Origin: Candidatus Altimarinota bacterium
GTDB lineage: Bacteria; Patescibacteriota; Gracilibacteria; BD1-5; UBA2023
Assembly: GCA_014377245.1 (NCBI GenBank)
Contig: JACMPX010000029.1
Location: forward strand, 1 to 37,400
Reading direction: 5' to 3'
DNA length: 37,400 nt
Both the position numbers and the translations under genes were made by a program. The notes beneath the pieces are model-generated. The model had not been told where the DNA came from, made no database searches, and saw only the letters and a list, made by a program, of their open reading frames with translations. Shown in pieces: positions 1 to 37,400 of the stretch (its first letter is position 1; each line of letters begins with the position of its first letter).

Positions 1-126
1 GGAACAACAGGAACTGGAACAACAGGAACTGGAACAACAGGAACTGGAACAACAGGAACTGGAACAACAGGAACTGGAACAACAGGAACTGGAACAACAG
101 GAACTGGAACAACAGGAACTGGAACT
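1..126 (+). repeat. 15-bp tandem repeat, eight perfect copies, inside a CDS
   Basis: The unit GGAACAACAGGAACT occurs eight times without a mismatch (1-120), followed by one GGAACT. It codes for GTTGT each time. Perfect identity at synonymous positions points to recent expansion by slippage or unequal recombination. The array is cut by the window edge, so the true copy number is unknown. Confidence 0.95.
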
Positions 127-519
127 AATTGTAGTACTGGAAATATCCAGTCTAATCAGGCAGTTCTCCTCGCAGCTCAGTCCGCGTTTTCGACTGAGGT
201 TGCTCGACTCATCGCTGTGAAGCAATCTGCATATACTGTAATTTTCACACTCAGTGGATCCACTCAGATAGATGCCATGCGATCAGCTAACCAGGCATTC
301 CGTACAGGATTCAAATCAGCTGTCAAGTTACTCCAATCTGTAAAACAGTCTAATAAGTTTAGTTATAGTGAGTTCAAAGAATGTAGAAAAGAGGAAAAAA
401 AGGAAAAACATGAAGAAAAAAAGGAATATAAGGATGAAATCAAATCCCAAGTAAAAATCCTCAGAGATCAAATCAAGGACATCAAACGTGAGAACAAAAG
501 TCGTGATGGTTCTCGCTAG
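1..519 (+). CDS. Gly/Thr-repeat protein with charged C-terminal coil (5' end outside window)
   Basis: The frame is open from the first base and ends at TAG (517-519), so the gene begins upstream. The visible 172 residues start with eight perfect copies of the pentapeptide GTTGT, then a short linker (NCSTGNIQ), a helical segment (about 50-115) and a Lys/Glu-rich tail (about 118-172, with runs such as KEEKKEKHEEKKEYKDE) that should form a coiled coil. Gly/Thr repeats of this kind are common in surface or stalk-like proteins, but the family is not recognised. No TGA codon occurs in the visible part, so this section reads the same in the standard code. A strong hairpin terminator follows 14 nt after the stop. 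Confidence 0.75.
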   Translation, partial: GTTGTGTTGTGTTGTGTTGTGTTGTGTTGTGTTGTGTTGTGTNCSTGNIQSNQAVLLAAQSAFSTEVARLIAVKQSAYTVIFTLSGSTQIDAMRSANQAFRTGFKSAVKLLQSVKQSNKFSYSEFKECRKEEKKEKHEEKKEYKDEIKSQVKILRDQIKDIKRENKSRDGSR

Positions 520-532
520 TACATAGCTCATC

Positions 533-564
533 AAATCCCCTTCGAGTAATCGGAGGGGATTTTT
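533..564 (+). terminator. Rho-independent terminator
   Basis: AAATCCCCT (533-541) pairs with AGGGGATTT (554-562) across a 12-nt loop and runs into TTTT. It lies just after the TAG at 519 and closes the repeat-protein transcript. Confidence 0.85.
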
Positions 565-614
565 GAAACAGTGAAATGATTGCAATCGAACCAAAAGAGT
601 ATAGAATACAGTTA

Positions 615-643
615 TTGTTGTGGTTTTTTTCTGATTATATAAA
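615..643 (+). promoter_or_regulatory. Predicted sigma-70-type promoter
   Basis: TTGTTG (615-620), 17-nt spacer, TATAAA (638-643). The predicted start would leave a leader of about 30 nt before the ATG at 679. There is no clear Shine-Dalgarno sequence in that leader. Confidence 0.5.
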
Positions 644-678
644 TCTACTATCCTACCAATATACTAACCCACTACCCC

Positions 679-1461
679 ATGGAAACAGACATCCGACTAG
701 CAGTCCTCATCGACGGTGACAATATCCCATCAGCCTATGTGAAGGAAATGATGGAAGAGATCGCAAAATATGGCAATCCCACAATCAAGCGAATATATGG
801 CGATTGGACTCGTCCTGGACTCGCCAAGTGGAAAGATCTCCTCCTCGAACATGCGATCCAACCGATCCAACAATATGGATATACTACTGGGAAGAATGCG
901 ACGGATAGTGCTATGATCATCGATGCGATGGATATCCTCTACTCTGAGAAGGTGGATGGATTTTGTATTGTATCGAGTGACTCAGACTTCACTCGCCTTG
1001 CCACCCGCCTGAGAGAAGCAGGGATGCGAGTCTATGGAATAGGAGAGAAAAAGACTCCTAAACCATTCATCGTCGCCTGTGACAAGTTCATCTATATAGA
1101 GATACTCAAGCCTGCGAAAGAAGTAAATAAAAAGCTCGTAACACCCGAAACAAAAATAAAAAAGTGAGAAGTACGACCCTCTGAACCGACTCAGGAGACT
1201 CCTCCTACTGCTGTAGATATGATCACTCCAGAGCTCATCCGCCTCATATCAGCAACGATTTATGATCTCTCGGGAGACGATGGATGGGCGTTCCTCGGAG
1301 ATGTCGGAACACTATTACAGAAGAAGCAACCCAATTTCGATCCTCGAAATTATGGATTCAACAAGTTGACTCCCCTTCTCGCCTCGACATGAGTATTCGA
1401 CATCATGGAACGAGAGTGAGGCAGTAGTAGATATAAGATACTGTATGTGAGAAATAAGTAA
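679..1461 (+). CDS. NYN-domain (LabA/DUF88) protein with C-terminal LOTUS/OST-HTH domain
   Basis: The 260-aa product has an N-terminal NYN fold (about 6-140). Its acidic PIN-like residues are visible in LIDGDNIP (D12, D14), ATDSAMIIDAMD (D76) and SSDSDFTRLATR (D101, D103). A Lys/Pro/Thr linker (about 145-175) leads to a winged-helix OST-HTH/LOTUS domain (about 178-258) with the features WAFLGDVGTLLQ and FDPRNYGF. NYN domains are metal-dependent ribonucleases and LOTUS domains bind RNA or protein, so an RNA-processing role is likely; the target is unknown. TGA is read as Gly at residue 163, in LLASTGVFD and in ERESGG. The LOTUS half exists only if TGA is translated: the standard code would stop at residue 162. 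The start is the ATG in CCCCATGG. Confidence 0.9.
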
Positions 1462-1472
1462 TAATTTTTTTA

Positions 1473-2048
1473 ATGAAACATATTCTCTTTGATACTGATG
1501 ATGTCGTGGTACACTCCGATATGTGGAGTCAGGAATATTCTCGTAGAACTGGGATTACTACAGATATTATGATTCCATTTTTTCGATGAGTATTTCAAGA
1601 TTGTTTGGTATGAAAATCGGATCTAAAGGAGAGCTTGTCTCCATTTTTGTGAGAATGGTGATGGACTAAAAGTACTCAAGAATATCTCGATGCCTGGTTT
1701 GCATATGAGAATAATATCGATAAAAAACTAATAGAAAAGATAAGACAATATAGATGATATGGGATCCAGTGTCATGTTGCAACGAACCAGGAGAAGTATC
1801 GTCTAGCATACCTCAGAAACGAGATGTGATTTTCTAGAGAATTCGACTCAGTATTTTGTTCTTCCGAAATTGGACATAAGAAACCTGCAAGTGAATTTTA
1901 TACACATATTCTTGATGTGCTCGAGATAAAAGATACAAATGACATAGTCTATTATGATGATGCGGAAGAAAATATAGAAGCTGCGAAGAAACTATGAATC
2001 AACGCAATACTCTACAAAACAATTGATGATTTAGTTATATCCAATTAG
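1473..2048 (+). CDS. HAD-superfamily hydrolase (probable phosphatase)
   Basis: A 191-aa protein that starts 11 nt after the previous stop and is probably cotranscribed with it. Motif I is FDTDDVVVHSD (nucleophile D7, acid D9). Motif II is HVATNQ, motif III the Lys of GHKKPASEFY, and motif IV the acidic pair in YYDDAEENI followed by AAKKLGINA. This is the order and spacing of HAD phosphatases of the beta-phosphoglucomutase/5'-nucleotidase type with a helical cap. The substrate cannot be read from sequence. TGA-coded glycines are frequent (for example FFRGVFQD, FLGEWGW, KLGIN); the standard code would leave only fragments. The TAG stop overlaps the stop of the convergent ABC permease gene. Confidence 0.85.
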
Positions 2049-2818
2049 CTCCTGATCCCTTGTCCTCGTGAAAACATATACCAAATAATAGAGAAAAATA
2101 GGATACACAATATTATGAGTATCATGAATGATACCAGTGGATTGATATCTGAAACTCCGTGCATCCCATATCGAAACCCATCAATCATATAGAGAATAGG
2201 ATTGGCATGTGATACTTTTTGCCAGATATCTGGAAGCATCGTTATAGAATAAAATACTCCACCGAGATATGTCAGTGGTGTGAGTACGAAGTTGGGAACT
2301 ATCGATACAGAGTCAAAACTATCAGCTACGAGTCAATTGAGTAGTCCAATGAGTGAGAATAATAGTGAAGTAAGGAATGCAAAGAGGAATGTGAGTCCGA
2401 TATGAGCAAATGTCACATGAGTGAAAAAAAGTGCTACACTCAGAACAATCGCTCCTGTTACCATACCTCGTATGACACCTCCTGTTATAAATCATAGGAT
2501 AATTACCCAATATGGAGTAGGAGAGACTAGTATCTCTTCGATTGTCTTCTGGAACTTCGCCATATAAAACGACGATACAACATGTGAGAAAGAGTTCATG
2601 ATCACCGACATCATCACAAGTCCTGGCACGATGAACTCCATATATGAGAGTCCTCCAACTACTCCGATCCGAGATCCGATGAATTGTCCGAATATGACGT
2701 AGTAGAGAGTCGTCGTGATGACTGGTGGGACGATAGTCTGCTTCCATACTCGGATGAAGCGAGATACCTCTTTACCGACGATGGTCATATAAGATATGAA
2801 GAGCTGTGATGGATTCAT
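2045..2818 (-). CDS. ABC-2 type transporter permease
   Basis: The 257-aa integral membrane protein has about six hydrophobic segments and the family signatures KEVSRFIRVWKQTIVPPVIT (about 17-36), YYVIFGQFIGSRIG and, near the C-terminus, NPILYMIDGFRYGMHG. It resembles the YadH family of drug, lipid or polysaccharide exporters, which are about 256 aa long. An ATG at 2854 is in frame but lies inside the predicted -10 box TATAAT (2858-2853), so it could not be in the mRNA. The ATG at 2818 (MNPSQLF) gives the usual family N-terminus, with about 15 residues before the KE, and is preferred. Partner: the ATPase at 3625-4536, same strand, separated by a convergent gene. The stop overlaps the convergent HAD stop. 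Confidence 0.88.
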
Positions 2819-2852
2819 TGAGAATAGTTTATAAAATGAAGTAATGACTCTC

Positions 2853-2902
2853 ATTATAGAAATATAAATAGAATTTGCAAAAAAGAGTTCTAGACGTACT
2901 AT
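2853..2902. promoter_or_regulatory. Divergent promoters sharing one palindromic -35 (TTGCAA)
   Basis: TTGCAA (2875-2880) is its own reverse complement. Leftward: 16-nt spacer to TATAAT (2858-2853) for the ABC permease. Rightward: 16-nt spacer to TACTAT (2897-2902) for the gene at 2928. The two polymerases could not occupy the site together, so expression of the two genes may be mutually exclusive. The same design recurs at 19505-19555. Confidence 0.6.
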
Positions 2903-2927
2903 CTCATCATAATATCACCAAGCAATC

Positions 2928-3620
2928 ATGAAAATCAAAACAGGATCCAAAAACAGTAAAATCGGTACACCGAAAATCGAGAAAATCACAAAGCCAATAG
3001 CCGAGAAAAGAGAAAAAACTCCAAAAGTACAAAAAACACAAATAGACTCTATCCCAACATGGGTACGTGAGTCCAGTGAGAAAAAACCAAAGCGAGTTGA
3101 GTGAGTTGAATCCAAGCTCCAGTGGAGAAAAGAGACAAAAAAGTCTCAGCGAAGTTTCAGTAAAAATAAAGAACGAGACTATACTGAAACAAATTCAAAA
3201 AAAGAATCAGCTCCATCAGATGCAAGATGAGGATTTCGCAATACATTCGACAAGTCAGCGACATATGAATGAGAGAGTCGAAAATCGAGCTGGGATCTCA
3301 ATTCCAAAAAATCTGGGACAGGATTCGAAAAAAGTAAAACAGGCTACAAATGAGCCGGATCTACATGGGACAAGTCCGCGTCTCCACGAGTCTCGACTCG
3401 TACTTGGGATGATTCCGGTGACAAGCCAGCAAGATCTATAAATGCTCTGAAGAGGGTATATTCAAAGTCAACATCTACAAATTCGGATTCTACAAAGTCT
3501 ACACCAACAAAAACTGCCAAAGAAGAATACAAAAAACCAAAATATATAGCTCCAAAACCGACCTGGGAAAAAGAGGCTGAGATCATCGATAAGAAAAAGC
3601 TGATAGATCCTACTAAATAG
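2928..3620 (+). CDS. Lys/Ser/Thr-rich basic low-complexity protein, unknown function
   Basis: A 230-residue product appears only when TGA is read as Gly (codons in RVEGVES, DARGGF, YEGES, YKGAGS). In the standard code it is broken into pieces. It is rich in Lys, Ser, Thr, Asp and Glu, has no predicted membrane segment or signal peptide, and looks disordered, with recurring WxK/WD motifs (TWVRES, SSWDLNSK, STWDKSAS, RTWDDS, PTWEKE). Such basic tails occur in RNA- or DNA-binding proteins, but no domain is recognised. An in-frame TAA just upstream fixes the ATG at 2928 as the first possible Met. It lies between the ABC permease and the ABC ATPase on the opposite strand; its TAG is only 4 nt from the stop of the ATPase. 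Confidence 0.75.
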
Positions 3621-3624: not shown

Positions 3625-4536
3625 CTACTTAGCTGTACTCTTCAAAAAAAACTCCTCGAGTCTACCACTCTTTGGTTTGATTGATTTGATCTGATATTCC
3701 TCCTCTTGGAGGATTTGTATCGCTTGATCCAGACTATGATTGGATGATACTGTGAGATCAGCAGATTGCATATCGAATACTGGTGTATATTTATCTAGAT
3801 TTTTGCCTACATATTCTCGGTCCAGCTCTACAGTTACCACCTCATCTTCCATAGATGCCAGAAGTGTACGAATAGGTCCATATTTCACAATTATTCCCTG
3901 ATCGATAATAGCGATATTGCGACAGAGACTCTCTGCCTCTTCGAGATAGTGAGTCGTGAGAATGATAGTCACTCCTGACTTGTTGAGTTCTCTGAGAAAC
4001 TCATACATACCATGTCTGAGCTCGAGATCTACTCCCGCTGTCGGCTCATCGAGGATGAGGAGCTCAGGATTATGTACCAGTGCTCGGGCGATCATGAGAC
4101 GACGCTTCATTCCACCTGAGAGAGTCCGAGATGCTGCATTCCGCTTTTCCCAGAGTCCGAGAGCTCTGAGATATTTCTCGACATTGGGCTTCGCGACTTC
4201 TGGTGAGATTCCATAATAACCTGCCTGAGCGAGGACAATATCGTATACCTTCTCGAATATGCCAAAATTGAATTCTTGAGGTACTACACCAACTCAGAGT
4301 CGAGCCTCAGCACCTGCAGTATCGAGATCATGTCAACCGATGATCACGCGACCACTCGTCTTGTTGATAAGTCATGAGATCACTCCAATAGTAGTTGATT
4401 TACCGGCACCATTAGGCCCAAGGAGTGCAAAAAAGTCACCCTTCTCAATATCGAAGGTGATTCATTTGAGTGCATCAGTTCCACTAGAATATGTTTTTTT
4501 GAGATCGGTTATCTGGAGTGCGAGTGTTTTTTGCAT
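3625..4536 (-). CDS. ABC transporter ATP-binding protein (ABC-2 / DrrA-CcmA type)
   Basis: A 303-aa nucleotide-binding subunit. Walker A is GPNGAGKST (40-48), the Q-loop is in GVVPQEFNFG, the signature is LSGGMKRR (139-146), Walker B is LLILDEPTAGVD (about 157-168) and the switch His is in ILTTHYLEEAE. The C-terminal extension (about 225-303) is usual for DrrA/CcmA-like ATPases of ABC-2 exporters. It should energise the permease at 2045-2818. It starts 15 nt after the DUF1993 gene and is likely in one transcript with it. TGA codes for Gly in DALKGITFD and elsewhere, and a family glycine falls at several of these sites. Confidence 0.93.
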
Positions 4537-5132: not shown

Positions 5133-6842
5133 TTATATTCATTCACTCTCATAGAGCATCTGTTCTTCAATTTTTCTACGATCAGGGATCGAGAGAAAGA
5201 GGCGAGCCATACGCAGCTCATCATAGGTGTAGTCCTCGTCATGTAGACTTGCGAGGAATTCACGAACTAGAGAGAGTGACAGCGTACCCACCTCGACAAA
5301 TGCCCTATGAATATCAGAGAGTCGGTCACTATCATCAGGCCGATGTGCTGTGAGATCTATGATCTTCCCTTCTTCAGTCAGCTTCTCGATATGAGAAAAT
5401 ATAGTCGAGATTTTTATATTGCGAATTTCCGCAATATCATCGAGTGATTTACCAGAGACGATAAGTGAATAGGTCTCTTCATGAGTAGTGAGCTTGGCTC
5501 TCTTGGGAACTGTGAAATCGAGATCGATCTTCTGGAGTATACCTCCGAGTTTTTTGATCGCTGTTTCAATTTTAGTTTCTTTTTCACTATCAGAGATCTG
5601 GGCAAGTCGCTCGATGACCGCAAGAGAGGTCGCCCTGAGAATCTGATCATACTCTCGTACCCGAGGATCGATCTGGAGAGCGGTCGGATTGTATCATCTC
5701 AGTATCAGTCACTCGAGTGAGCGGACACGAGAGAGGGCTACATATCACTGCCCTCGGACGAACGCATCCGAGAGATCCATGACAGCAGTATCGAGAGTCA
5801 TACCTTGCGACTTATGGACGGTGATCGCCCAGGCAAGACGCAGTGGAATCTGAATAATCGATGCTTTGATTTTACCATTTTCCTCAATCGACCAGTCCAT
5901 ATGATCTGCAATGATACGCGTGCCATCCATGAGCTCGACGATGGGAAGTGACTCATATTTTCCGACCACATGTCCAATGGAGCCATTCACATATCCGGCA
6001 TCGAAGTTATTTTTCACGAACATGACTCTGGCTCATTTTTTGAGGATCAAGGTCTCAGGTGCGAGACATCACTTCTTCAGAGCCTCCACAAGCTTCTCAG
6101 CTCACTTAGACTGCATCTCAAAGACAAATATATCATCGTGAATCGCATTGAGCCGTTGAGTATTGTAGGTGTCAACCGATATATTGCGAGTAAAGAGCTC
6201 GGTATGATCCTCAGTCTCTACTGGCATATTGCGACTATCGAGGAGCGAAAAAGACTCCTGACTCATATCTCATGAACGGATCTCGTTCAATATGGTGAGA
6301 AGTGGATCCTCTCACTGTCGGTACTGGATATCGAGTACACAGATGGCCAGTCGGAGCGTCCTCCAAATAGGATCCTGAAATGCGAACTCGATATCGCTTC
6401 CCCTCGAAACTGGTGGCAACTGGAAAAAGTCTCCAACCAGAACGACCTGAATCCCTCCAAATGGCTCCTGAGAAAAACGAGTTGATCGCAGGAGTCGATC
6501 TAGATTCGCGAGGAACCTGCCCGAAAGCATCGAAATCTCATCGATGATCAGGATATTAGTTTTGGCGAATCTCTTCGCAAGATATTCCCGTGATACTATC
6601 ACATCGATATCCTCATCCGTGAGCGTATCTCGTATGCCCATACCACTCCACGAGTGTATCGTCATCCCACCTATATGAGTCGCAGCTATCCCTGTCGAAG
6701 CTGTGACTGCAATGATGATGCCATGTTCGCGAGCATGTCGTATGAATCGGTTGATCAGGTAGGTCTTGCCAGTTCCCGCTGCTCCGGTGAGGAACACATT
6801 GTGTCCCATGGTGAGTATATCGTATGCTTGATCTTGAGTCAT
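5133..6842 (-). CDS. PIF1/RecD2-like superfamily 1 DNA helicase with C-terminal HTH
   Basis: A 569-aa SF1B (5'-3' type) helicase. Walker A is GAAGTGKT (20-27), followed by [21 protein letters not shown] (motif Ia), IIDEISML (about 98-105, Walker B), GDFFQLPPV (motif III), ARVMFVKNN and the C-terminal motif [12 protein letters not shown] (about 340-351), then [14 protein letters not shown]. The region about 455-510 ([29 protein letters not shown]) is a helix-turn-helix of the type found behind RecQ and PIF1-like helicases. It probably acts in DNA repair or replication-fork restart. The ATG at 6842 ([10 protein letters not shown]) fits the family better than a hydrophobic 16-residue extension to 6890. 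TGA is read as Gly after residue 176 (RQGEDP) and in several later places. The last codons run through TGA to a TAA. Confidence 0.9.
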
Positions 6843-7023
6843 GGAAATGAGTGTATGAAAAATAAGGCGAAAAACAATAAAAAAATCCATATATTTCTGT
6901 CTTGGATTTGTCTTTTTTTCACGGTACTAAAAGGTATAATACAAATATCTAGATGCAAGATATTCACTTCTATTCTAGACTTATGACAATTAAATTATTT
7001 TTTTATTTCTCACTTTCATATAT

Positions 7024-8436: not shown

Positions 8437-9333
8437 TTATTCATATCGTTTGTTCCAGGTTATCTGCCTCTTAGCGTAGTTGCGAGATCTCTGCTGGATG
8501 AGAACTTTCGCAGCTACGAGTGTCATATTTCACTCCAGAGCATCGACGACTTCTCGGTATCCGATAGTCATGAGTCCAGGACAATGTGAGCTAAATAACA
8601 TAGTATTATTCTCTACTTCTTGTATGAGTCAATAGTCAAACATCTCGTCTACTCGTTTATTGATATTCTTATAGAGATCCGGTCGATTTATATCATCATA
8701 TGGTGTGAGAAATAGTGGTGAGAATCTCGGATTTTTTTTTCACTTGGACTCTAGCTTGGATTCACCAGTCTGCCGCATCACCTCGAGTCATCGCATCACA
8801 TAGCGATAGTTGCCTGGATCGAGCGTATGAGCATATTCTGGATCAACTCTCTCGAGCATATTCCAGAGTTCCTTGGTTCATATTGTGAGTCTGATTGTTT
8901 CGAGTTCTGCCCTATAGTCCCAGTCAGGAGGTGTATCAGGATAGGCCATCTCATATAGGAGTCCGTCGATATAGAGTCCAGTGCCACCGCAGAGGATCGC
9001 TATAGCTCATCGCGAGTGGATTGTTTCAATGATCGGGAGTGCCATATTCACGAACTCGACTACCGAGAATATCTCATTCGGATTGATCACATCGATCATA
9101 TGATGTGGGATATTTCGCATTTCTTCGCTCTTGATCTTGCCAGTTCCAATATCCATATATCGATATATCTGACGCGAATCTGTGGAGATGATCTCACTCT
9201 GTATATATTGAGCTACATCAAGCGAAAGGTCGGTCTTACCACAGGCAGTTGGACCATATATGACGATAACTTTGGGGAATTCGGTCTCACTGCGGATGAA
9301 TTCGTCAACAGATGATTTATACTTTTCATGCAT
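8437..9333 (-). CDS. miaA: tRNA dimethylallyltransferase (MiaA)
   Basis: A 298-aa protein, the normal family length. Walker A is GPTACGKT (27-34), followed by the family signature STDSRQIYRYMDIGTGK (about 51-67), PHHMIDVINPNE, LCGGTGLYIDGLL, the tail of the insertion domain, GYREVVDALEG and QQRSRNYAKRQITW. It transfers dimethylallyl from DMAPP to A37 of tRNAs reading UNN codons. TGA is Gly in HSRGAIAILCGG and ALEGNM. The ATG overlaps the last 17 nt of the AI-2E-type permease gene, so the two are likely translationally coupled. In an organism that has moved UGA to Gly, A37 modification of UNN decoders is of added interest. Confidence 0.95.
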
Positions 9334-10462
9334 TGAGTTTAGTTTTGATATGGGATATATGTTGGTCGATATCCTTTAAGAATCCTGTACAGATAACAAA
9401 TATAGGTACTCAGATAAGTAATCCAACGAGTCAGAAAAAATGCTCAGAAATCATAAGGATCAAAAATATCATAAAAACAGGAATATGTACATATGATGAA
9501 ACTATTCGAGGATTGAGATAGTAAGCCTCAATAGCATGTACAAGTGCAATCATAGCAATAGCTAAAAGGAGGGAAATATTCCCACCGTATCAATAGGCGA
9601 TGATGAGGATAGGAACTCCAGATATGAATGTACCAAAAACAGGGATAAATCCAAATACAAGCACAATTAGTGAGAGGGTAAAAATAAATGGAAATAAGTT
9701 TCCACCATGAATAATACTTATAGCAATAAGACCCAATGTAGTGAGTATAGCATTGACTACTGCGATGAGCGACTGAGCCTTCAATATTGCTCCGAATCCA
9801 TTCCCAATTTTGTGAGCAATGATGGCATATTCTTCATAAAAGAATGCAAAATTCCCACCTCGTATCTGAGACAAGAATAGTACTATCGGAGCACGTTCTA
9901 TGACAAATATATATGAGAGTATGAGTCCGATGAGGAACTTGGTCAGGATGATCCCAGTATTGCGTAGATACGCAAGAGTTGTTTGTCCGATAGACTCAAG
10001 CGTACGAGTATTGACAAAATCTCCCACGATTTGATTGAGTCCGAGATTGACTGATAGGGCTTGCTCTATCTCAGTAGCAAAATTCTGGAGCTGGCTGGCT
10101 ATATGTGGTGCTCTATTGATGAACTGGATAATCTCACGGACAATCTGTGGGATGATATTGACAAAGAGAAATACAACAATAACTATAAAAAGTATATAAA
10201 GAACAGTTACTACTATATTGGTATTGCTATAGCGAAGAGCTATCTCTGATGCCTTGTTCCTCTTGCTATGGAGTCACCAAGTATGGATGACGCCCGTGAG
10301 CCATGAGCCAACCTCGAGAAACAGATATGCGAAGAGGAAAGTGATGAAAAAAAGAAGCAGAAAATCAGATAAGATATAACCAATGAGAAAGAGGAGACCG
10401 AATGCGAAGACTTTTTGGAAAAAGACACTCGAGAATACAAGGGGGATGATTTTGCGAAGCAT
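9317..10462 (-). CDS. AI-2E family transporter / PerM-like permease
   Basis: A 381-aa membrane protein with seven to eight hydrophobic segments in the AI-2E (UPF0118, YdiK/PerM/TqsA) order: an N-terminal hydrophobic pair, a long periplasmic-type helix (EIIQFINRAPHIASQLQNFATEIEQ), LIGLILSYIFVIER, FGFIPVFGTFISGVPILIIAYG and IEAYYLNPRIVSS near the C-terminus. This last element is a family hallmark. Substrates in the family differ (autoinducer-2, Na+/H+), so no substrate is assigned. TGA is Gly in IHTWGLHS, IAYGGG and FFGLVG. Because TGA is read through near the end (LNAGKV), the gene extends to a TAA that lies inside miaA. Confidence 0.9.
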
Positions 10463-12645: not shown

Positions 12646-13995
12646 ATGAATGACGAAACTATCACACCAGTAGTCCCAGAGTCTGTATCCACTATCCGAG
12701 ATGAAGACCAGTTTCAGGATGCGATAATAGCAGCCAAGGAGAAATCAAAAAAGTCAGATGGACATATCAGATTCGAGACGCTCGCGACCGAGATCCATTC
12801 AATGCTCTCTCGACAAGATAGTGACGCTACTCTGACCCTCATCACGAAGTGAGCTCTCGGATTCGGATCATCAGATATCCACTATGATACTGCTGAGTCA
12901 GATGTCCAAATAAGGTTGAGGATCGATGGAGAACTGGTCACCATAGCGACACTCACGAGACCTGAGTACAAGCTCCTCCTCGAGCGACTCAAATACAAAT
13001 CCGATCTCAAGCTCAATCTCACAGATATCCCTCAAGATGGGAAATATCGTATCAAAACGGATGATGAGAGGATCGATGTACGTGTTGCGACGCTCCCTGT
13101 TCGCTATGGTGAGAATGTGGTATGTCGAATACTCGACTCAACGAAGGCGATCCCATCGGTGAATGATCTCGGATTCATGTGGACATCAAAGAGGCAGATA
13201 GATCGTAGTCTGAAGAAGAAAAATGGAACCATCCTCGTCACAGGTCCGACAGGATCAGGGAAAACTACTACTCTCTACTCGATGTTATCGAGCCTCAATA
13301 CTGAGACTCGCAAGATCATAACACTCGAGGATCCCATCGAATATGAACTCGCTGGAATCGTGCAAAGTGAGGTCGATGATAAGAAGAACTACACCTACTC
13401 TACAGGACTCAAAGCTCTCATGCGTCAAGATCCGGATATCATCATGATCGGTGAGATCCGTGATCTCGAGTCTGCGACAATATCCATGCAGGCTGCTATG
13501 ACATGACATCTCGTCCTCTCGACGCTCCATACCAAGAGTGCAGGTGAGACGATCGAGCGACTCATGAATATGGGCGTGCCGAACTATATCATCGCATCAG
13601 GACTCGATGTGATCATTGCTCAGAGACTAGTCCGCCGACTCTGTCCTCACTGTATATCCTCATATGAGGCAGATCCGAGTCAGATCGATATTATCAAATA
13701 TATGCTCAAAGATCTTGGTATCGAGAAACTCGCGAGCAAGAAAGACGGATTCAAACTCTGGAAATCAGCAGGATGCAATGAATGTGGTATGACAGGATAC
13801 AAGGGTCGTATCGGTATCTATGAGGTAATGAACTTCTCTGATGATATCCGTATGCTCATCCGTAATGGATCGAGTCCCAGAGAAATCATTACGGCAGCTC
13901 GCAAGGGAGATCTCATGCTCATGCGAGAAGATGGTATACTCAAAGCGATGCAAGGCAAGACGAGTCTGGATGAGCTCTTTAAAGTGATAGAATAA
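12646..13995 (+). CDS. pilB: Type IV pilus assembly ATPase, PilB/GspE family
   Basis: The 449-aa secretion ATPase has Walker A GPTGSGKTTT (200-209), Asp box ITLEDPIEYE, Walker B DPDIIMIGEIRD (about 261-272) and His box GHLVLSTLHT (287-296). A tetracysteine zinc site, CPHC (333-336) and CNEC (377-380), favours PilB/GspE over PilT. The N-terminal domain is short (about 60 residues before ALGFGSSDIHYD), where PilB proteins are usually about 560 aa. Gly287 in the His box is encoded by TGA, as is Gly69. It would power pilus extension at the inner membrane. No pilin, platform (PilC) or PilT gene is adjacent; instead two large exported proteins lie downstream past a minus-strand gene. The gene starts with a probable leaderless mRNA. 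Confidence 0.95.
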
Positions 13996-14698: not shown

Positions 14699-14805
14699 AA
14701 GAGGAGAGTTATAGAAATATGTTGTTGAGTATAGAGATATGTGACGAATTAGCAAAAAATATCGAATAGTATCCGAAAAATTGTATATCCATGTGCGCTT
14801 TTCTT

Positions 14806-14834
14806 TTGCATTTTTCTCCTCTATTTGATACAAT
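14806..14834 (+). promoter_or_regulatory. Promoter predicting a leaderless mRNA for the exported-protein pair
   Basis: TTGCAT (14806-14811), 17-nt spacer, TACAAT (14829-14834), six bases, then ATG at 14841. The geometry is the same as that of the pilB promoter 2.2 kb upstream, which suggests shared control. Confidence 0.65.
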
Positions 14835-14840
14835 AACTCT

Positions 14841-16388
14841 ATGTTTAGACTGAGATCCATGTTCGTGATTCTCTTGCTCATCTTGATGCCATGTTTCGCT
14901 GATGCAGCAGAGGATCCTGGGATCGTCGGATCCAATCTGGGTCTCGACTTTTACTCGCGAATCGATGACGCGTGAGATAGTCTCGCTCAGGGAATCACGC
15001 GAAGACGTCTCGGAGAAAAATGAAACTATGGATCACTCGGCTGTTGAGCAAGTTGGCTCTCGGGAGAACCTATCGATCAGAATGCACTCAATGAGCTGAG
15101 AGCGGGCAATACCGCAATACTCGTACAGATTGCCAGCAGCAAAAAAGTCAATCTCACCACTGGACCTGAGAATAGCCTCAGACAGTGTCTCGTCGAGAGA
15201 TATAATACCATACAGAGATCGGCATATGAGGATCAGAATACTCTCGAGACAGTCGGGAATGTCGGACTCTATATGGATGGAGACACTGCTAACTCTGACT
15301 ATGATATCCTCGCAGACGTAACTCGGATCAATACTATCATATTCAAAGAAAAATATGAATACAAATGAACCAAAAATGCGAGTGTACAGGCAGTCGCTGA
15401 TATGCTCGTCGGTAAAGTGATCGCTCCACTATTTCCTCCAGCCATATGATCATCACTCTCAGGAGGAACTACTCCAACGAGTTTAACTGGAGGTATCGGT
15501 GGTGCAGTATGATCTACGACGAGTGTAGGATCATCTATACTCCCTTGGGCAGGGATCTGTGCAATTGGACCTGGAGGGAGCTCATCATCTACTGGACTCT
15601 TTGGTGATGGATTTTTCGATGATATTGGCTCATCGCTCGCTGGTGGCAAGAATGGAGGTGGAATCGTATATACTCCGATATGATCTCTAGGATGATGAGC
15701 GACATGATCTGGATCTAGCAGTTCATTCGGATTATCTGAGAAGTCAGACTACTACCATAAGCCATCTTGTGATGGGATATTCTGTATAACAATCAATATG
15801 GTGGCGGGGAGTCAGGCTGGTCTGGGCGGATTCTCCAATACCTCGATCGAGTCACTCCTCGAACAACACTCTAAGATGATGGATCCGATATCATGGTCAG
15901 ACCTCACGCAACAAAAAATGACGAACAACTCCTACCAGTTACCATGGCTCAATATCAAATTCAAAAACAAGATTGCTTGAGGTCGAATATATATGACGGA
16001 GTCTCCTCAACCCAAGAAAAATCTCAAAACAGAAGATACCCCTGAGGCGAAAGATGCTGTATTCAATGCTGCATATCGCTGTGCGATGAACGAGGCAGGA
16101 CTCTCCTGAGATGATATGCTCTCGAGTGGATTCATCGGTGCAGGATTCGTACAGCACAACTGACAGACGACTGGCAACATAGTGAGAACCACTATATCTC
16201 TATGACCCAAGGAGATGGACTCACTCGCTGGATGCTATGCTACTCGTATCGGTCGCGGACAAAGAGAATCCTACAATAGTCTCTCTACAGATCTCAATGA
16301 GATCCAAGCATTCACCTCTGCTATGATGAATATAATACTTGAGATCATCGATACAGATCGCAAGCTCGATCGACTCCCAACCAAATAA
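14841..16388 (+). CDS. Large exported protein, unknown function (Gly/Ser-rich middle)
   Basis: A 515-aa product read through about a dozen TGA-Gly codons, including clusters (SLGGGATGSG around 15688-15714). The N-terminus (MFRLRSMFVILLLILMPCFA) is a signal peptide. The N-terminal domain (about 24-190) has several Cys (for example SLGCGASW, SLRQCLVE). A Gly/Ser/Pro-rich hydrophobic middle (about 195-310) includes GGTTPTSLTGGIGG. A C-terminal domain (about 330-515) follows with AYRCAMNEAGLSGDDML and SLAGCYATRIGRGQ. No family is recognised. It is followed after 2 nt by a second exported protein and shares the promoter type of pilB. A role in a pilus or secretion apparatus is inferred from context only. 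In the standard code this gene would be seen only as short fragments. Confidence 0.75.
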
Positions 16389-16390: not shown

Positions 16391-17620
16391 ATGCCAATGA
16401 AAATCTTCACCACATCCGTTATTATTTTTACTACTGTATTTTTTTCGACTCAGATTTTTGCAGATGCTAGTTGTCAAATCGAGAATGGACCGATTCCAGA
16501 ACTAGCCGAATACACTCGTACAGTCGAGGCTCGTATCACAACACTCATCACTGAGGCTCGTAGCTCCTGAGGCTGTGGCATAACTCGAGGATGAGCATCA
16601 GTGAGTGCAGAAAAAGCTACCGAGACGATCGATCGGGCATTTCTCGAGATCCCAGTTTTTGATAATACATTCCTCGATTTCCTCTACAATATCCAAGTCG
16701 CGATCAATGGTGAGACTCGAGCTCCAGTTCTGCGAGATGGTACTATATTTTCCACCACTGAACAGCGGATTACTCGTGCTATCGCGAATGTTACCAACAC
16801 ATGTAGCCTCAACTGAGCTGTGAGATCAGGATTCCAGTCGCTCCTCCAGGAGAATCAGACCCTCGAGAATATTTACAAGCAGACAGTACTCGGAACTCCA
16901 ATACCTGAGACAACATGACTTTCCCCGAGCAATATCATAGTTGCTAACGCGATCACTCGATGATATGTTCCTACGGCGACTGAGTCTTGTAAAAGTCAAA
17001 CTGGTATAGCAGAGCTGACTGCCAAGCTCCAGCAATCTCTAGAGTCTGTAGGAGCTAAGAGTGAGTGAGTATTATCCGATTGGAAAAAATGAATCGCCCT
17101 ATTTCAGTGAGGTGGAGGCAAGATGAGCACACTCGAGTACACTCGGATTCAACGCAAACTCCTTCAGTCAGAGATTGCTCGACAGGGATTCTCTCCTCGT
17201 ATGGCTGAGACGATCCTCGGCAATTTCGACTGCTTCAAGTGAAAAACAATATGAGACGATAGTGCAGAGGCCGCTATACTCGCGAAGAGGGCATGTCTCT
17301 CAAATCCTATCCTCGGACTCGAGACTATACTCCTCCCATGGAGGAAGAGAGTAGATAGTGCGAGAACCACAAATGCTCGAGTGATCAGTGTCAATGAGCT
17401 CTCGAAAGAACAACAAATAAAATCAGCAATAATAAGAACATATAGTAATCTGGAAGCATACAGAACTCCAGCTATCGATATCAAGTCAGCTCTAATGAGT
17501 AACTTGATAGATATACATCTCTGATTGATCTCAACCGCAGAGCAAGTAGAGAAGCGTCTGCCAACTATGTATACCAATTGTATGAAGTCTCAGTCATCTA
17601 TATCTTGCCCAAAACCCTAG
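16391..17620 (+). CDS. Exported Cys-containing helical protein, unknown function
   Basis: A 409-aa product starting 2 nt after the previous stop, certainly in the same transcript. An N-terminal signal peptide (KIFTTSVIIFTTVFFSTQIFA) is followed by a mostly helical exported chain with spaced Cys (DASCQIENG, SSGGCGITRG, NTCSLNGAV, ESCKSQTG, NFDCFKG, KRACLSNP, YTNCMKS), suited to disulfides made by the nearby DsbA-like lipoprotein. There is no recognisable domain. Roughly a dozen TGA codons are read as Gly. It ends at TAG, 3 nt before the convergent dnaX stop. The pair resembles accessory proteins of surface machines, but this is inference from neighbourhood and export signals alone. Confidence 0.75.
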
Positions 17621-19504: not shown

Positions 19505-19555
19505 AGTATATCAGATAAAAGATTTTTTTGCAAAAAATGGCAGATTCTCTATAAT
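19505..19555. promoter_or_regulatory. Divergent promoters sharing one palindromic -35 (TTGCAA)
   Basis: TTGCAA (19528-19533) reads the same on both strands. Leftward: 17-nt spacer to TATACT (19510-19505) for the small membrane protein. Rightward: 16-nt spacer to TATAAT (19550-19555) for serS, whose ATG is at 19586. Both -10 boxes are near-perfect, so the single hexamer very likely serves both directions. Confidence 0.7.
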
Positions 19556-19585
19556 CCGATGTATATCCCCTCAATCCACCCAAAT

Positions 19586-24616: not shown

Positions 24617-24644
24617 CCTCTCAAATCAACATTTGAGAGGTTTT
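24617..24644. terminator. Bidirectional hairpin terminator
   Basis: CCTCTCAAAT (24617-24626), loop CAAC, ATTTGAGAGG (24631-24640), then TTTT. It abuts the stop of the convergent tsaC-like gene and can serve both strands. Confidence 0.8.
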
Positions 24645-25164
24645 ATGAGTAATTGCGTCTCACATACTGCAATTCACCATCTGCACCAATCGAAAAGATA
24701 TCTGATGGTGGCTGATCGCAGACTCATCCATCATATCACTCAACTCATGGAAAACATGATATTGCTCCTGCAAAAGTAGTAGACTCTGAGTGACCTGAGA
24801 GATTCGCCGAAGTGAGAAAAAGTGGAAAATGAGGCAATATCTCCAAGAGGGTAGGCGGGAGACATACACTCGCCACACGAAAGGAAATATTTGAGTACTT
24901 GGTGCGATCAAGAAAGTCAGGTAAAATAAAGGTATCACGTCGCTTCAGGATAATACTCCATGGATGAGGATAGTTTCTCAAGAAATCTATCTGTACATCT
25001 GTGATCTCACTATATTTGCAGAGCATATCCCAATCAGATACGAGGAGTGCTAGTCTCTTATCGAACTCGCGACCCTTGAGTCTATATATCTCATGATAAT
25101 CCTCTGGCGAATAGACATCTCCAGCGAGTCAGTAGCAAGTATCTGTTGGAATTATTTGAATCAT
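24643..25164 (-). CDS. tsaC: Threonylcarbamoyl-AMP synthase, TsaC/YrdC/Sua5 family
   Basis: A 173-aa YrdC-domain protein. Family motifs: IIPTDTCYGLAGDVYS (N-terminus, PTDT-YGL), IYRLKGREFDKRLALLVSD (the K-R-x-x-x-x-P-L equivalent), YPHPWSIILKRRD, the S-A-N-S motif LTSANLSGH, and the end CDQPPSDIFSIGADGELQYVRRN. It makes the threonylcarbamoyl-AMP used for t6A37 in tRNAs reading ANN codons. The Sua5 C-terminal domain is absent, as in TsaC. TGA is Gly in YGLAG, SCFPGVEGYDGG and elsewhere. Upstream are a 50-aa membrane peptide and murC on the same strand, but a gap of 163 nt suggests a separate transcript. Confidence 0.88.
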
Positions 25165-25491: not shown

Positions 25492-26955
25492 TTATAGTAT
25501 CTGACTCCTGAGTCCATCGATATCACCCGCACCGAGCAATAATATTATGGAGCTATTCGGATTCTTTTCATCATATTCTCGGATGAGCGTCGCTGTATTC
25601 TCGAGTCCACCACCATCTCGGATATTCGGTTGATTCTTGGTAATCTCAGTGATCAGTTTTTCCATCGTCATCCACTCTACATCTTCCTGCTTGTCCCGAG
25701 AGAAGTAGATATTCGGGATGATGAGTTCTGATGCATCTGAGAAGCTATTTGCGAATTCTGGCAATAGCTCACGAGTGCGTGAGTACTGATGTGGCTGGAA
25801 TACGACGAGGAGTTGCTTGTCGCTATATTTCTCATGGATAGCAGCCAATGTCGGGCGGATCTCATTCGGATGATGTCCATAGTCACTCATCACGATATTA
25901 CCACTAGTAGTTATTCCGACGATCTCAGAGCGACGCCATGATCCCATATATCACTCGAGTTTTGGTACTATGATATCGTCCTTCATCCCGAGCAGTCGAC
26001 CAACAGCAAAGGCAAGGTGAGCATCCTGGAGGAGATGAGAACCTGGCACCTGGAGTATCATTTGTGGTATTGGCATTGTTTTTTCGATATAGAATGTCTC
26101 GACAATACCATCTTTGTTTTCTTCTACTCGTGGGTAGTAGGTGATGGTATTGTTTCCGACGATAATTTTTTTCTCTTCTGGTATATTGAGGCGAGCACTA
26201 TTCTCATCATCTGCTGATATGAGGACAAATCCTGATGTCTGATCTACGAGTGACTGGAATGCTGAGAGGTAATCTTCGAGATTTTTGTAATAATCGAGAT
26301 GATCGAGATCAATATTGGTGATAACGGTGATATATGGATGATACTGGAGGAATGATCTCTTGTATTCACATGCTTCGATGACGAAATTATCCGTAAGTGG
26401 CTCTGTGTAGAAGTTCGAATTGTTCAGTTGTGGAACCTGCGTTCCGATGATCGCTGAACACCCTGGAGCAGTCGGAGCGTAGAATGCTGCCCCATCATCT
26501 GGGAGCTCGATAGTCGGATTGGTCGCATAGTCATTCGCGAGCATGAGTGTCGTCATAGCGGTTGTCGTCGACTTGCCGTGAGAACCTGTAATCGCGATTC
26601 CCTGTTTTGTATTGAATATTTCTCCAAGAGCTACTGGATAAGACAGATGTGTTATGTTGAGATCTTTTGCTTTTGCAAGTTCCGGATTCGCATAAATCTG
26701 CTCCTCTGGAGGGAGATCAGGTTGAGTGATAATCGCCTCGGAATAGATTACGAGATCAGTATCCTCCCTGAGATTGGTAGCTACATGTCCGATCTGGATG
26801 TCGAATCCCTCAGAGCGGAGTCTATCCAGAAATGGTGAATCAGCTCCATCAGAACCAGATACACTATATCCGAGACGCTTGTAGTAGCGAGCAAGAGCGG
26901 AGACTCAGATTCCACCGATACCGATGACGTGGAGATGTTTTCGGGCGTGAGACAT
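25492..26955 (-). CDS. murC: UDP-N-acetylmuramate--L-alanine ligase
   Basis: A 487-aa Mur ligase. N-terminal Rossmann motif HVIGIGGIGVSALARYYKRLGYSVSGSD (about 9-36), with the sixth residue of GIGGIG encoded by TGA. The ATP loop is ITGSHGKSTTT (about 115-125), the central-domain signature ITNIDLDHLDYY, and the C-terminal domain carries SDYGHHPNEIRPTL and VVFQPHQYSRT. This fits MurC rather than MurD-F: the GHHP and HQ-YSRT blocks are MurC/Mpl features. It adds the first L-Ala to UDP-MurNAc in the cytoplasm, so the organism makes peptidoglycan. The start matches a promoter with -10 only 8 nt upstream. Confidence 0.95.
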
Positions 26956-26963
26956 AGAAGGGT

Positions 26964-26991
26964 AGTATATGGAAAGAGGAGCTGAATGCAA
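26964..26991 (-). promoter_or_regulatory. Promoter predicting a near-leaderless murC mRNA
   Basis: Minus strand: TTGCAT (26991-26986), 16-nt spacer, TATACT (26969-26964), eight bases, ATG at 26955. Transcription would start 0-2 nt before the ATG. Confidence 0.6.
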
Positions 26992-32050: not shown

Positions 32051-33169
32051 TTAGATACTTTTGAGCTTTTCTATGAGAGTATCACGAAAGTAGATATGAG
32101 ACTCTCTCATCTTGGATTTTTCTCGGTCATAGTCTCGTGTAAGTATCTCCCATCGTGACATACAGTCCTCGAGAGTCATCTCAGATGCTCACATCGAAAG
32201 ATGGCTCAGATCGAGCATCTCTATGAGCTGATCCGTCTTGGGACCATATGATATCGGAATATATGGTATCTCATGGACGCAAGAGAGTATACCTGCATGG
32301 AGTCGCATACCGATGACAGCATGAAGAAATGGGAACATATCGAGCGTCTGAGTGATATTCTTCGTTGCATTATAGGTCTTCCCTATCATAACCTTGCGTA
32401 TGAAGAGAATATCATTCTGTTCTTCTTCGCCATTGGTCGAGAATACGAGGAATATCGGCTTGTATCCGAGCTCTACGAGCTTATCATATAGGAGTGGTAT
32501 CACAGCTTCACCTTCCCCGAGAAATCATCATCTCATAGATATTCCGACGAGCTTGATTGGGGAGATCGGCTTCGCGAGCTGTGGTGGCTCATAGAGAAAT
32601 ACTATATCCTGTACCTGTACTGAGGGTATCTCGAGGGCATCGAGGAGTCATTTGCTCTGTTCATCTCGAACAAGTATGAAATCGCCTGGTACGAAGAGTT
32701 TACGGAGTTTCATCTTATTGTGGACCTCTGTGACCTCAAGTCCTATTCACCAAAATAGGAGAGTAGTATGAGCTATACGAGCTATATTGACACGCCACGA
32801 CCACTGAGCAAAAAGAGACCAGAAAGATATTCCTGGCTCATTATCGAAGATGATCCCACCACCACCGATAATCAATACATCAGCACGAGCGATGAGCCAT
32901 ATATTATGGAAAAAATAGCCAATATTATGAAATGGTTTGTGCATGACATCATTAGGAAAATATGACGCAAACTTCACCTGATCACCACGGATAATCGTAC
33001 TCGTAGGATCATACGTACAGGCTGTGATCTCAATATTTGTTCCATAGTGCTTTTGTATATATTCAACTTCACCCTTGAGGATCAGTTCATCTCAGAGATT
33101 ATGAGATCCGACAGCCGCCATGAAGAGGATTTTTTTGGGTTTTATTTTCTTGGGCTTATGACCGAACAT
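32051..33169 (-). CDS. Polysaccharide pyruvyl transferase family protein (CsaB-like)
   Basis: A 372-aa protein with the family start ILFMAAVGSHNLGDELIL (about 14-31; the Gly-Asp part uses a TGA Gly), ARADVLIIGGGGIIFDN (about 95-111), KLVGISMRWW, KPIFLVFSTNGEEEQND, and the C-terminal GMRLHAGILSCVHEIPYIPISYGPK. These blocks are typical of CsaB/WcaK pyruvyltransferases. CsaB adds pyruvate to secondary cell-wall polymers that hold S-layer proteins with SLH domains. The enzyme uses PEP at the cytoplasmic side. No SLH protein is in the window. The length is normal for the family. It is transcribed alone, with the lipoprotein operon downstream on the same strand. Confidence 0.87.
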
Positions 33170-34174: not shown

Positions 34175-34759
34175 ATGGCTAATATCGATATCGCTCCGTC
34201 GAAAACTATGCTCAATCTCCTCCATATCCTCCCAGCATTTGCTGACGAAGCAAGGCTCAGAGTCAATGTACTCGTAGAGATCAACTCTATGACGATCAAC
34301 AAGTACGAGATCATCACTGAAACTGGTACACTAAAGCTCGATCGTGTTGGATATTCCTCACTAGCGTATCCGTTTGCATATGGTGCTATCCCATGCACTT
34401 GGGATCACGATAATGATGCCCTAGATATAGAGATCGTAGGAGTCACGGAGCCACTCGTACCCGGGTGTCTCGCAGAAGTCCGTATTATCGGTATTATGAA
34501 ATTCGACGATGGAGGTGAAGTTGATGATAAGGTGATCGGAGTCCTCGCTGATGATAAGCGTATGGATCATATCTCCAGTTATACTCAGCTTGGATCTCAT
34601 TGGGAAAAAGAAACTACATACTACTGGGAACACTACAAGGATCTCAAAAAACCTGGAACCTGCAAAGTTAGCGGATTCTATGATACAGTTGAAGCTGTGA
34701 AGACGATTAAAGAATGCGAAGAGAGATATGTGAGTGAGTACCTACCAAAATTTAATTAA
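34175..34759 (+). CDS. ppa: Inorganic pyrophosphatase (soluble, family I)
   Basis: The 194-aa enzyme hydrolyses PPi to phosphate. Family I signs: VLVEINSMTINKYEI with the substrate-binding Lys, LDRVGYSSLAYPFAYGAIPCTW and the metal signature DNDALDI (79-85), whose Asp residues bind Mg2+. The usual signature has Pro or Glu at the fourth position; here it is Ala, a mild deviation. Then EVDDKVIGVLADDKR and HWEKETTYYWEHYKDLKKPG with the catalytic Asp, Lys and Tyr residues. It contains no TGA codon although it has about twelve glycines, in line with a highly expressed gene avoiding UGA. The length fits bacterial Ppa (about 175-195 aa). Confidence 0.94.
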   Translation: MANIDIAPSKTMLNLLHILPAFADEARLRVNVLVEINSMTINKYEIITETGTLKLDRVGYSSLAYPFAYGAIPCTWDHDNDALDIEIVGVTEPLVPGCLAEVRIIGIMKFDDGGEVDDKVIGVLADDKRMDHISSYTQLGSHWEKETTYYWEHYKDLKKPGTCKVSGFYDTVEAVKTIKECEERYVSEYLPKFN

Positions 34760-36123: not shown

Positions 36124-36169
36124 CAAATAATAGTATCTACTTATATAAATACTATTATTGAATCATGTC

Positions 36170-36385
36170 TTATTCCATTCCTGTTATATTAGCAGCTTTT
36201 TTTGCTACTGCAGTTGATATTGTATAGCTAGTCTTTTTTCAAGAGAATGCTGAGGGAGGCTGAGAGCTTAATCATTTTTCATCTAATACTCTTTGTGCTA
36301 AGGCTTTTGCTCTATGTCATTTGGGATCTCTCAAATCAGGCATAGTAATCCATCTTCATGACCAAGAGTCAAATATTTCAGCCAT
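36170..36385 (-). CDS. Small basic protein, unknown, read only with TGA = Gly
   Basis: A 71-aa product beginning MAEIFDSWSGRWITMPDLRD and ending with the Lys/Ala/Thr-rich tail AVAKKAANITGME before TAA. Four of its five glycines are TGA, so standard-code callers would miss it. Charged N-terminal half, helix AKALAQRVLDEKG, no membrane segment. The family is not recognised. It lies between the RlmL-like gene (convergent) and another small protein on the same strand, 41 nt after that gene's stop. Confidence 0.65.
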
Positions 36386-36426
36386 ATATAAAAAGGTTAA
36401 TAATTTTTATTATTCTACTCATGCGA

Positions 36427-36792
36427 TTACTTGATTCCAAGGAATCCTTTGATTTTTTTGAATACTCCTCCTACATTCTTTGTTGCGAATTGTTTGACTT
36501 GATCCATGTCAGTATTCTTCACAGCATCTTTTACATTATCGATAGCCTCAGATATACCCGTCTTACCGTCACCATCGACATCCTTACCTATGAACTCCTT
36601 GATTGCTTCCATAGCATTTTTGAAATCAATCTCAGGGAGATCTGTTGTATCTATACCGACCTTCGCAGCTGCTGCCTTGAATCCATCAGACATGATACTC
36701 GATTCGAACTTGTCACCGAGACCTGATTTGAGCTTCTCTATAATATCAGATGATATTCCTGATGCTTTGAGTTTTTTGATAATATCGTCCAT
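36427..36792 (-). CDS. Small helical protein with an EF-hand-like Asp loop
   Basis: A 121-aa acidic helical protein. It starts MDDIIKKLKASGISSDIIEK and carries one loop DVDGDGKTGISEAI (about 75-88), which matches the calcium-binding DxDxDG...E pattern of EF-hands and dockerin repeats. The rest is amphipathic helix, ending VGGVFKKIKGFLGIK, a basic tail that could touch membrane. Function is unknown; calcium or magnesium binding is plausible from the motif. A longer in-frame start at 36903 would add 37 hydrophobic residues but would start inside the terminator, so the ATG at 36792 is chosen. No TGA codon. Confidence 0.7.
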   Translation of the reverse strand: MDDIIKKLKASGISSDIIEKLKSGLGDKFESSIMSDGFKAAAAKVGIDTTDLPEIDFKNAMEAIKEFIGKDVDGDGKTGISEAIDNVKDAVKNTDMDQVKQFATKNVGGVFKKIKGFLGIK

Positions 36793-36893
36793 GAGAAAAA
36801 GTGAAAAGGTATAAACACAAAGAGTATAAGTAAAATATATCCAAATAAAAAAAGAAATATTTATTTTGCTTGCCAATTTTATTTTATATACAT

Positions 36894-36923
36894 AAAAAAA
36901 CACCTCATTTGAGGTGTTTTTTT
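36894..36923. terminator. Bidirectional hairpin terminator
   Basis: CACCTCAT/TTGAGGTG (36901-36916) flanked by A7 on the left and T7 on the right, so a U tract exists on both strands. It ends the collagen-like gene on the minus strand. Confidence 0.85.
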
Positions 36924-36937
36924 ATGACGAGAATATA

Positions 36938-37400
36938 CTAGAGTGTTGTCGCACATATAGCATATGCTGTGAGCGTCCAAGTATTATTACCGCTTGCCAC
37001 TCGATCTACTGAAATAGTCCAAGTGTTTGTAGCACTAGGAAAACTGGCACTATTTGCAGTTCATACCGAAGATGTGAATCCACCTCAGATAACACTTTTT
37101 CCACTTGGACAAGTAGCTACTTGTGTTCTTGTTGCTGTAGTTGCACTAGCACCAGTAGTCTGAACTATCTCATACCCACTCACTCAATTGACACCATTTG
37201 TACCACCTGTTCATGCTGCTCATTTTGCTCAAGTGGCTCCAGTTCCTCCGATTGCTCATGCAGGTCCAGCTATTCCAGCAGGTCCTGTAGCACCAGTTCC
37301 TCCGATTGCTCATGCAGGTCCAGCTATTCCAGCAGGTCCTGTAGCACCAGTTCCTCCGATTGCTCATGCAGGTCCTGTAGCACCAGTTCCTCCAGTAGCA
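36938..37400 (-). CDS. Collagen-like repeat protein (5' end outside window)
   Basis: The minus-strand frame is open from the window edge to TAG (36938-36940), giving 153 visible residues. The first part is a Gly-rich repeat with Ala/Pro/Ile/Thr (GATGPAG, GIAGPAGAIGG), close to collagen-like G-X-Y order, then GVNGVSGYEIV and a C-terminal domain (about 100 residues: QVATCPSGKSVIGGGFTSSV... NTWTISVDRVASGNNTWTLT) like the compact beta caps that end collagen-like surface fibres. Gly is coded by GGA, GGT and TGA mixed, with one TGA per repeat. A cell-surface or attachment role is likely by analogy; none is proven. Confidence 0.8.
37239..37400 (-). repeat. 54-bp tandem repeat in the collagen-like gene
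   Basis: Copies start at 37239 and 37293 (identical 54-mers). The copy at 37347 has lost 18 bp in the middle and is followed by a partial copy at 37383. The unit codes for 18 residues and includes one TGA glycine. The array runs off the window. Confidence 0.9.

Follow-up and report, generated by a model that had tools for sequence, protein, structure and literature searches.

Translation of UGA as glycine is stated for Gracilibacteria and Absconditabacteria (PMC8629427); in a BD1-5 population, 97 peptides were unique to the glycine reading, 3 to a tryptophan reading and 0 to UGA as stop (PMC4032931), and the BD1-5 genomes then available had lost prfB and kept prfA (PMC6851277). A change of UGA to sense is tied to loss of prfB in insect symbionts (PMC6851277), and a phage of Absconditicoccaceae has been reported to carry a glycine tRNA with a UCA anticodon (PMC13059738). 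Here we examine the genetic code of a stretch of 37,400 nucleotides from a bacterium deposited as Candidatus Altimarinota (contig JACMPX010000029.1, C10 in our numbering), hereafter the window. We are close to certain that the window belongs to the chromosome of an uncultured Gracilibacteria-type bacterium, of the BD1-5 kind, that uses NCBI genetic code 25, in which UGA specifies glycine.

The window compares closely with the described code 25 of Gracilibacteria/BD1-5 (PMC4032931, PMC6851277), which it resembles in reading UGA as glycine, in the near absence of prfB and retention of prfA in its order, and in the presence of a UCA tRNA in its relatives. We noticed no difference in kind; UGA is a minor glycine codon in the window, accounting for 147 of the 711 glycine-type codons of its called genes. 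The code of Absconditabacteria (SR1) (Campbell et al. 2013, via PMC8629427) is alike in UGA, but there CGA and CGG encode tryptophan, whereas in the window the two, taken jointly, face arginine and never tryptophan. Code 4, used by Mycoplasmatales and some insect endosymbionts, also turns the UGA stop into sense, as tryptophan rather than as glycine. The finding is real and rightly interpreted, but it is not new: it exemplifies a code already described, UGA as glycine having been recognised in the group, with experimental support, for about a decade. It fixes the code with which this genome has to be annotated, as translation table 11 would cut most of its genes, and it adds homology-free evidence (a collagen-like repeat) and a count of prfA, prfB and tRNA(UCA) over 77 genomes; knowledge of the code itself is unchanged.

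The window (GC content 0.408) comes from an assembly that comprises 54 contigs with 779,031 bases in total and is 80.24% complete. With the PilB protein of the window as query, six genome loci were retrieved, four of them from Candidatus Gracilibacteria bacterium, at 78-88% identity; judged by this similarity, the organism is a member of Gracilibacteria/Absconditabacteria and its nearest named records are Candidatus Gracilibacteria. Comparisons were made with four congeners (G008, G009, G010 and G011) and with two wider sets, the genomes of the order (n = 77) and a sample of the phylum (n = 145).

Under table 11 many long frames of the window are fragmented, and under table 25 the same frames fuse into genes with recognisable domains. 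The 30 called genes comprise 10,067 codons, among them 147 TGA, 564 GGN and 92 TGG, and 28 of the 30 contain at least one in-frame TGA. Pfam matches cover 26 envelopes, of which 19 include TGA, and the 48 TGA codons that lie inside these envelopes therefore cannot be protein ends. The claim of an earlier note that TGA is translated throughout the window is thus borne out, with frames supported by homology running through it; where that note gave about 35 of some 43 genes as dependent on TGA, our own list gives 28 of 30. The genes to which the evidence below refers are the following:

2045..3115, minus strand: ABC-2 type permease (Pfam; 3 in-frame TGA)
3625..4536, minus strand: ABC transporter ATPase (Pfam, solved homologues, bit score by residue; 4 in-frame TGA)
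5133..6890, minus strand: Pif1-like helicase (Pfam, congener exchange; 9 in-frame TGA)
8437..9333, minus strand: MiaA, tRNA dimethylallyltransferase (Pfam IPPT 238.2 bits, solved homologues, bit score by residue; 6 in-frame TGA)
9317..10462, minus strand: AI-2E family transporter (Pfam, congener exchange; 5 in-frame TGA)
12646..13995, plus strand: PilB/GspE-type ATPase (Pfam T2SSE 390.9 bits; 2 in-frame TGA)
14739..16388, plus strand: protein without Pfam match (aligned in three congeners; 16 in-frame TGA)
16391..17620, plus strand: protein without Pfam match (aligned in three congeners; 11 in-frame TGA)
17624..19117, minus strand: DnaX, DNA polymerase III gamma/tau (Pfam, solved homologue; frame open to 19372, homology from about 19117)
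19391..20887, plus strand: SerS, seryl-tRNA synthetase (Pfam, solved homologues, congeners; homology from residue 66 of the frame)
24643..25164, minus strand: TsaC/Sua5-like protein (Pfam, solved homologues, congeners; 4 in-frame TGA)
25492..26991, minus strand: MurC (Pfam, solved homologues, congeners; 2 in-frame TGA)
32051..33169, minus strand: polysaccharide pyruvyl transferase family protein (Pfam, bit score by residue; 6 in-frame TGA)
34175..34759, plus strand: inorganic pyrophosphatase (one of the two genes without TGA)
36938..37399, minus strand: collagen-like protein, 5' end outside the window (translation, glycine-phase codon count, Pfam Collagen PF01391)

The residue inserted at TGA was approached by codon exchange. 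The 30 window proteins, with TGA masked, were aligned by tblastn to stretches of the four congeners and the facing codons were read, each window codon being counted once per congener genome and pieces below 40% identity being excluded. The congener stretches were picked through matches that cover 19,991 of the window's 37,400 bases, so that genes in the middle of the window are over-represented. Passing pieces were obtained for 18 of the 30 genes, of which 17 contain TGA, and for none of the other 12. Over these 17 genes, 93 TGA positions yielded 245 pairings, in which the congener carried glycine in 99, TGA in 85, serine in 16 and alanine in 9, the remainder being scattered (Asn 6, Asp 5, Lys 4, Thr 4, Glu 3, Arg 3, Pro 2, Leu 2, Trp 2, Ile 2, His 1, Tyr 1, Gln 1). 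The stop codons TAA and TAG faced a window TGA in 0 of the 245 pairings. These counts are identical whether the relatives are read by code 25 or by code 4. The profile resembles that of the ordinary glycine codons, since window GGN (1048 pairings, code 25) faced glycine 765 times, TGA 97, serine 38, alanine 28 and asparagine 27 times. In the reverse direction, TGA codons of the relatives (n = 261 under code 25) faced window glycine in 97, TGA in 85, serine in 19 and tryptophan in 1, with nearly the same outcome under code 4 (n = 251: 92, 85, 16 and 1, respectively).

A second line of evidence does not depend on homology. The first 72 codons of the collagen-like gene form a G-X-Y repeat, whose end was put at codon 72 after inspection of the sequence, and all 24 codons in the glycine phase are GGA (12), TGA (7) or GGT (5). 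Three of the seven TGA duplicate one another in a 54-base tandem repeat, which leaves five independent TGA; two extra TGA lie beyond the G-X-Y repeat. Once TGA had been set to glycine, the match to Pfam Collagen PF01391 reached 28.4 bits (cut-off 27.2).

Pfam scores point in the same direction. We set TGA to each of ten of the twenty residues in the ABC ATPase, MiaA and pyruvyl transferase proteins and summed the bits of the main family of each, excluding the secondary families AAA_21 and IPT (the IPT score was almost unchanged by residue). Glycine was the best of the ten (444.8 bits), followed by Asn (431.7), Lys (428.0), Ala (426.1), Ser (425.4), Asp (420.2), Arg (418.6), Cys (404.0), Leu (395.6) and, as the worst, Trp (395.0); in the pyruvyl transferase alone, leucine fell 0.2 bits below tryptophan. 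Alignments to solved homologues, with TGA masked as X (three to four per protein, two for TsaC, several of them to chains of one protein), showed glycine facing X in ABC ATPases (L-T-G-L), in several columns of MiaA, in DnaX (V-V-G-Q and A-K-G), in PilB (T-G-H-L-V) and in TsaC (Y-G); tryptophan faced X in none of the alignments shown.

The earlier note had argued for glycine, and not tryptophan, from named positions in five proteins. Its conclusion is backed by the exchange counts, the collagen-like repeat, the Pfam scores and the structural alignments, although its examples fared unequally. The TGA of the DnaX V-I-G-Q motif is glycine in the solved homologue and GGA in all four congeners, that of PilB T-G-H-L-V is glycine in the PilF chains shown and GGA or GGG in all four congeners (for DnaX and PilB, the rows are chains of one protein each), and the TsaC Y-G-L position is glycine in both solved homologues shown. 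The MurC position is serine or alanine in solved homologues, and TGA or glycine in the four congeners. The Ogt-like gene is interrupted in the window assembly: at 7540-8100, its start (Pfam Methyltransf_1N) lies in one frame and its I-G-x-A-N-H and P-C-H-R motifs lie in another.

Regarding gene ends, the last codons of the 30 window genes are TAA (20) and TAG (10), a result built into the way frames are read, so that for the window frames the earlier claim of TAA or TAG at the end of every gene holds by construction. It finds support in the congeners, where 48 aligned gene ends were traced to the next TAA or TAG (31 and 17, respectively). This stop was the very next codon in 32 of the 48 and lay within four codons in 44, and a TGA was met before it in two, Ogt and one hypothetical protein.

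The termination machinery of the order agrees with loss of UGA as a stop. A prfB gene above the cut-off was present in 1 of the 77 order genomes and prfA in 67; prfB was above the cut-off in 130 of the 145 genomes of the phylum sample, among them all nine that belong to other orders of the same class. The loss of release factor 2 that the earlier note named as a check is thus supported for the order, and the window's own assembly shows neither factor. The number of in-frame TGA within prfA varied from 0 (six genomes, all of family f1, to which the window belongs) to 18 (G032, family f3), and was 1 to 4 in the congeners.

We also identified the tRNA expected to read UGA. A first pattern for tRNA(UCA) matched 20 places in 16 of the 77 order genomes, 14 of which are read by ARAGORN as UCA tRNAs (under the label 'SeC'), in 14 genomes that include the congeners G008 and G011. 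A covariance model built on these 14 sequences recovered UCA tRNAs that had escaped the pattern (all those of family f3 and part of those of f1 and f2), and gave 65 strong matches (100 bits or more) in 64 of the 77 order genomes, the 14 model sequences included. Completeness does not exceed 90% in 11 of the 13 remaining genomes, and is 93% in G009 and 91% in G032. The acceptor bases of this tRNA (G1-C72, C2-G71, G3-C70 and U73) are those by which Shulgina and Eddy (PMC8629427) call glycine identity. Across 10 distinct sequences, its 22 proposed pairs hold in 99.1% of the cells, and five of the pairs have changed on both sides, a covariation that supports the predicted cloverleaf. The congener G008 was also seen to carry two different tRNA-Trp(CCA) genes (L069 and L075).

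As to mechanism, UGA is a fifth glycine codon, which would be read by a tRNA with a UCA anticodon and glycine identity bases; this tRNA is present in two congeners and in most of the order and presumably also in the window genome; its charging with glycine is predicted from the identity bases. Release factor 2, the terminator at UGA, would have been lost, as shown for the order, probably including the window genome, and genes would end at UAA and UAG only, through release factor 1. Codon exchange shows that UGG stays tryptophan (of 144 pairings of window TGG, 120 are with tryptophan and 1 with TGA) and that CGA and CGG, taken jointly, stay arginine.

Several observations weigh against this assignment. 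Asparagine scored almost as well as glycine in the main match of the ABC ATPase (110.6 and 110.7 bits, respectively), and the secondary match of the same protein, AAA_21, was lowest with glycine (45.1 bits, and up to 50.7 with arginine). Some TGA columns face other residues in distant homologues, namely alanine in MiaA (R-A-L-E), lysine or threonine in SerRS and serine or alanine in MurC. A profile test on MiaA and DnaX (29 homologues each, 11 TGA columns, one codon being counted twice) ended in a tie between glycine and alanine, with tryptophan last of the twenty residues; it misassigned 17 of 61 ordinary codons, TGG and CGG among them (CGG, with five columns, showed no clear residue), and this two-protein test is too weak. 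One order genome, G058, contains a full prfB (507.7 bits, no TGA, locus L023 on contig C153). The stretch that carries it has a GC content of 0.281 and, when read by the standard code, five long open frames, and the assembly (2.7 Mb in 500 contigs) also has a prfA with 16 TGA; the prfB is probably contamination. Among the four congeners, the UCA tRNA was not found in G009 (93% complete) or in G010 (74%). Nor was it found in the window's own assembly (80% complete) by pattern, covariance model or ARAGORN, where tRNA-Trp(CCA), prfA and prfB were likewise not found. Release factor 1 and tRNA-Trp are normally indispensable. Since both are missing, this assembly is most likely incomplete, and the missing tRNA-Gly(UCA) therefore decides nothing there. 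The assembly gave 22 tRNA matches, of which ARAGORN reads 21, and these include Gly(UCC) and Gly(GCC); a DNA search of it with the 3 kb flanking a congener tRNA(UCA) gave no match, an empty result that is uninformative. The tRNA-Gly(UCA) anticipated in the earlier note is thus found in the order and in half of the congeners, G008 and G011, but not in the window's own assembly.

Among the alternatives, the one that survives best, although we consider it unlikely, is an ambiguous UGA, translated mainly as glycine with an appreciable share of tryptophan or other residues, since UGG might also be within reach of U34 of the UCA tRNA, and UGA within reach of tRNA-Trp. In the BD1-5 proteome, at the highest stringency, 40 glycine peptides were accompanied by single peptides with tryptophan, alanine, aspartate and lysine (PMC4032931). 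In the exchange counts, however, no second residue emerges, as serine and alanine are also the chief replacements of GGN.

Code 4, in which UGA is tryptophan as in mycoplasmas, is very improbable here. UGA does encode tryptophan in several bacterial groups (PMC8629427), and TGG faces TGA in 2 of the 245 pairings, but of the 160 pairings other than TGA with TGA, 99 are with glycine and those same 2 with tryptophan, which also gave the lowest summed Pfam score and the last place in the profile test. Moreover, G008 has separate tRNA-Trp(CCA) genes, and the UCA tRNA has glycine-type acceptor bases.

A code of the Absconditabacteria type, with UGA as glycine and CGA and CGG as tryptophan, appears to us just as improbable. 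Such a reading of CGA and CGG occurs in Absconditabacteria, and CGG is tryptophan in some Gracilibacteria (PMC8629427). The window uses 128 CGA and 30 CGG in its 30 genes and shows no sign of this reassignment, since the two codons, tallied jointly, faced arginine in 210 of 289 pairings, lysine in 30, glutamine in 11 and tryptophan in 0. The match to table 25 proposed in the earlier note is therefore borne out, with UGA as glycine inside domains and CGA and CGG, taken jointly, remaining arginine, unlike in Absconditabacteria.

Less probable still is the standard code combined with decayed genes or sequencing errors, in which TGA would be a true stop within pseudogenes. The broken Ogt frame speaks for it. 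Against it, TAA and TAG are absent from the 48 Pfam-supported frames, whether these bear TGA or not, and both occur in every other frame: over the 17 genes, TGA occurs at 11.6 per 1000 codons in the coding frame (where TAA and TAG are 0 by construction), and all three stops occur in the five non-coding frames, TAA and TAG at 4 to 19 per 1000 each. In addition, another species of the genus also has TGA in 85 of the 245 pairings, GGN makes up 99 of the remaining 160, and prfB is above the cut-off in a single order genome. Selenocysteine at some UGA sites, suggested by the ARAGORN label at 14 loci, is the least probable reading of all, because in tRNA-Sec the acceptor/T arm is extended and the variable arm is long, whereas the UCA tRNA has an acceptor stem of seven pairs, a T stem of five pairs and four bases between the anticodon and T stems, and because TGA is spread over 28 of the 30 genes and faces cysteine in 0 of the 245 pairings.

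Returning to glycine as the meaning of UGA, we noticed two oddities of the UCA tRNA in the order. Its anticodon loop is CUUCAAC, with a C behind A36-A37, and its D-arm region lacks a GG pair (read in 30 of the 65 strong matches and in the 14 model sequences, mostly the same genes). MiaA requires A36-A37-A38. It is conceivable, though we hold it only tentatively, that this is an unusual glycine tRNA in which C38 perhaps bars the reading of UGG or modification by MiaA, and that in some families the code is perhaps still gaining or losing ground, the latter point suggested by the range of TGA numbers in prfA (0 to 18). We met no discussion of the D-arm and loop features in the available portions of the code-25 literature, and make no claim that they are unreported.

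A few further observations concern other parts of the material. A fragment on the minus strand of locus L022 (1501-1556), accepted by Infernal as tRNA-like and unreported by ARAGORN, looks by eye like a tRNA with a CAT anticodon and an odd 3' half. In the window, ARAGORN found zero tRNA and Rfam gave no match at gathering thresholds. The contig starts within a frame on the plus strand (1-519) that gave no match in a Pfam search and holds 8.3 perfect copies of a 15-base unit; this unit encodes Gly-Thr-Thr-Gly-Thr, and every glycine codon there is GGA.

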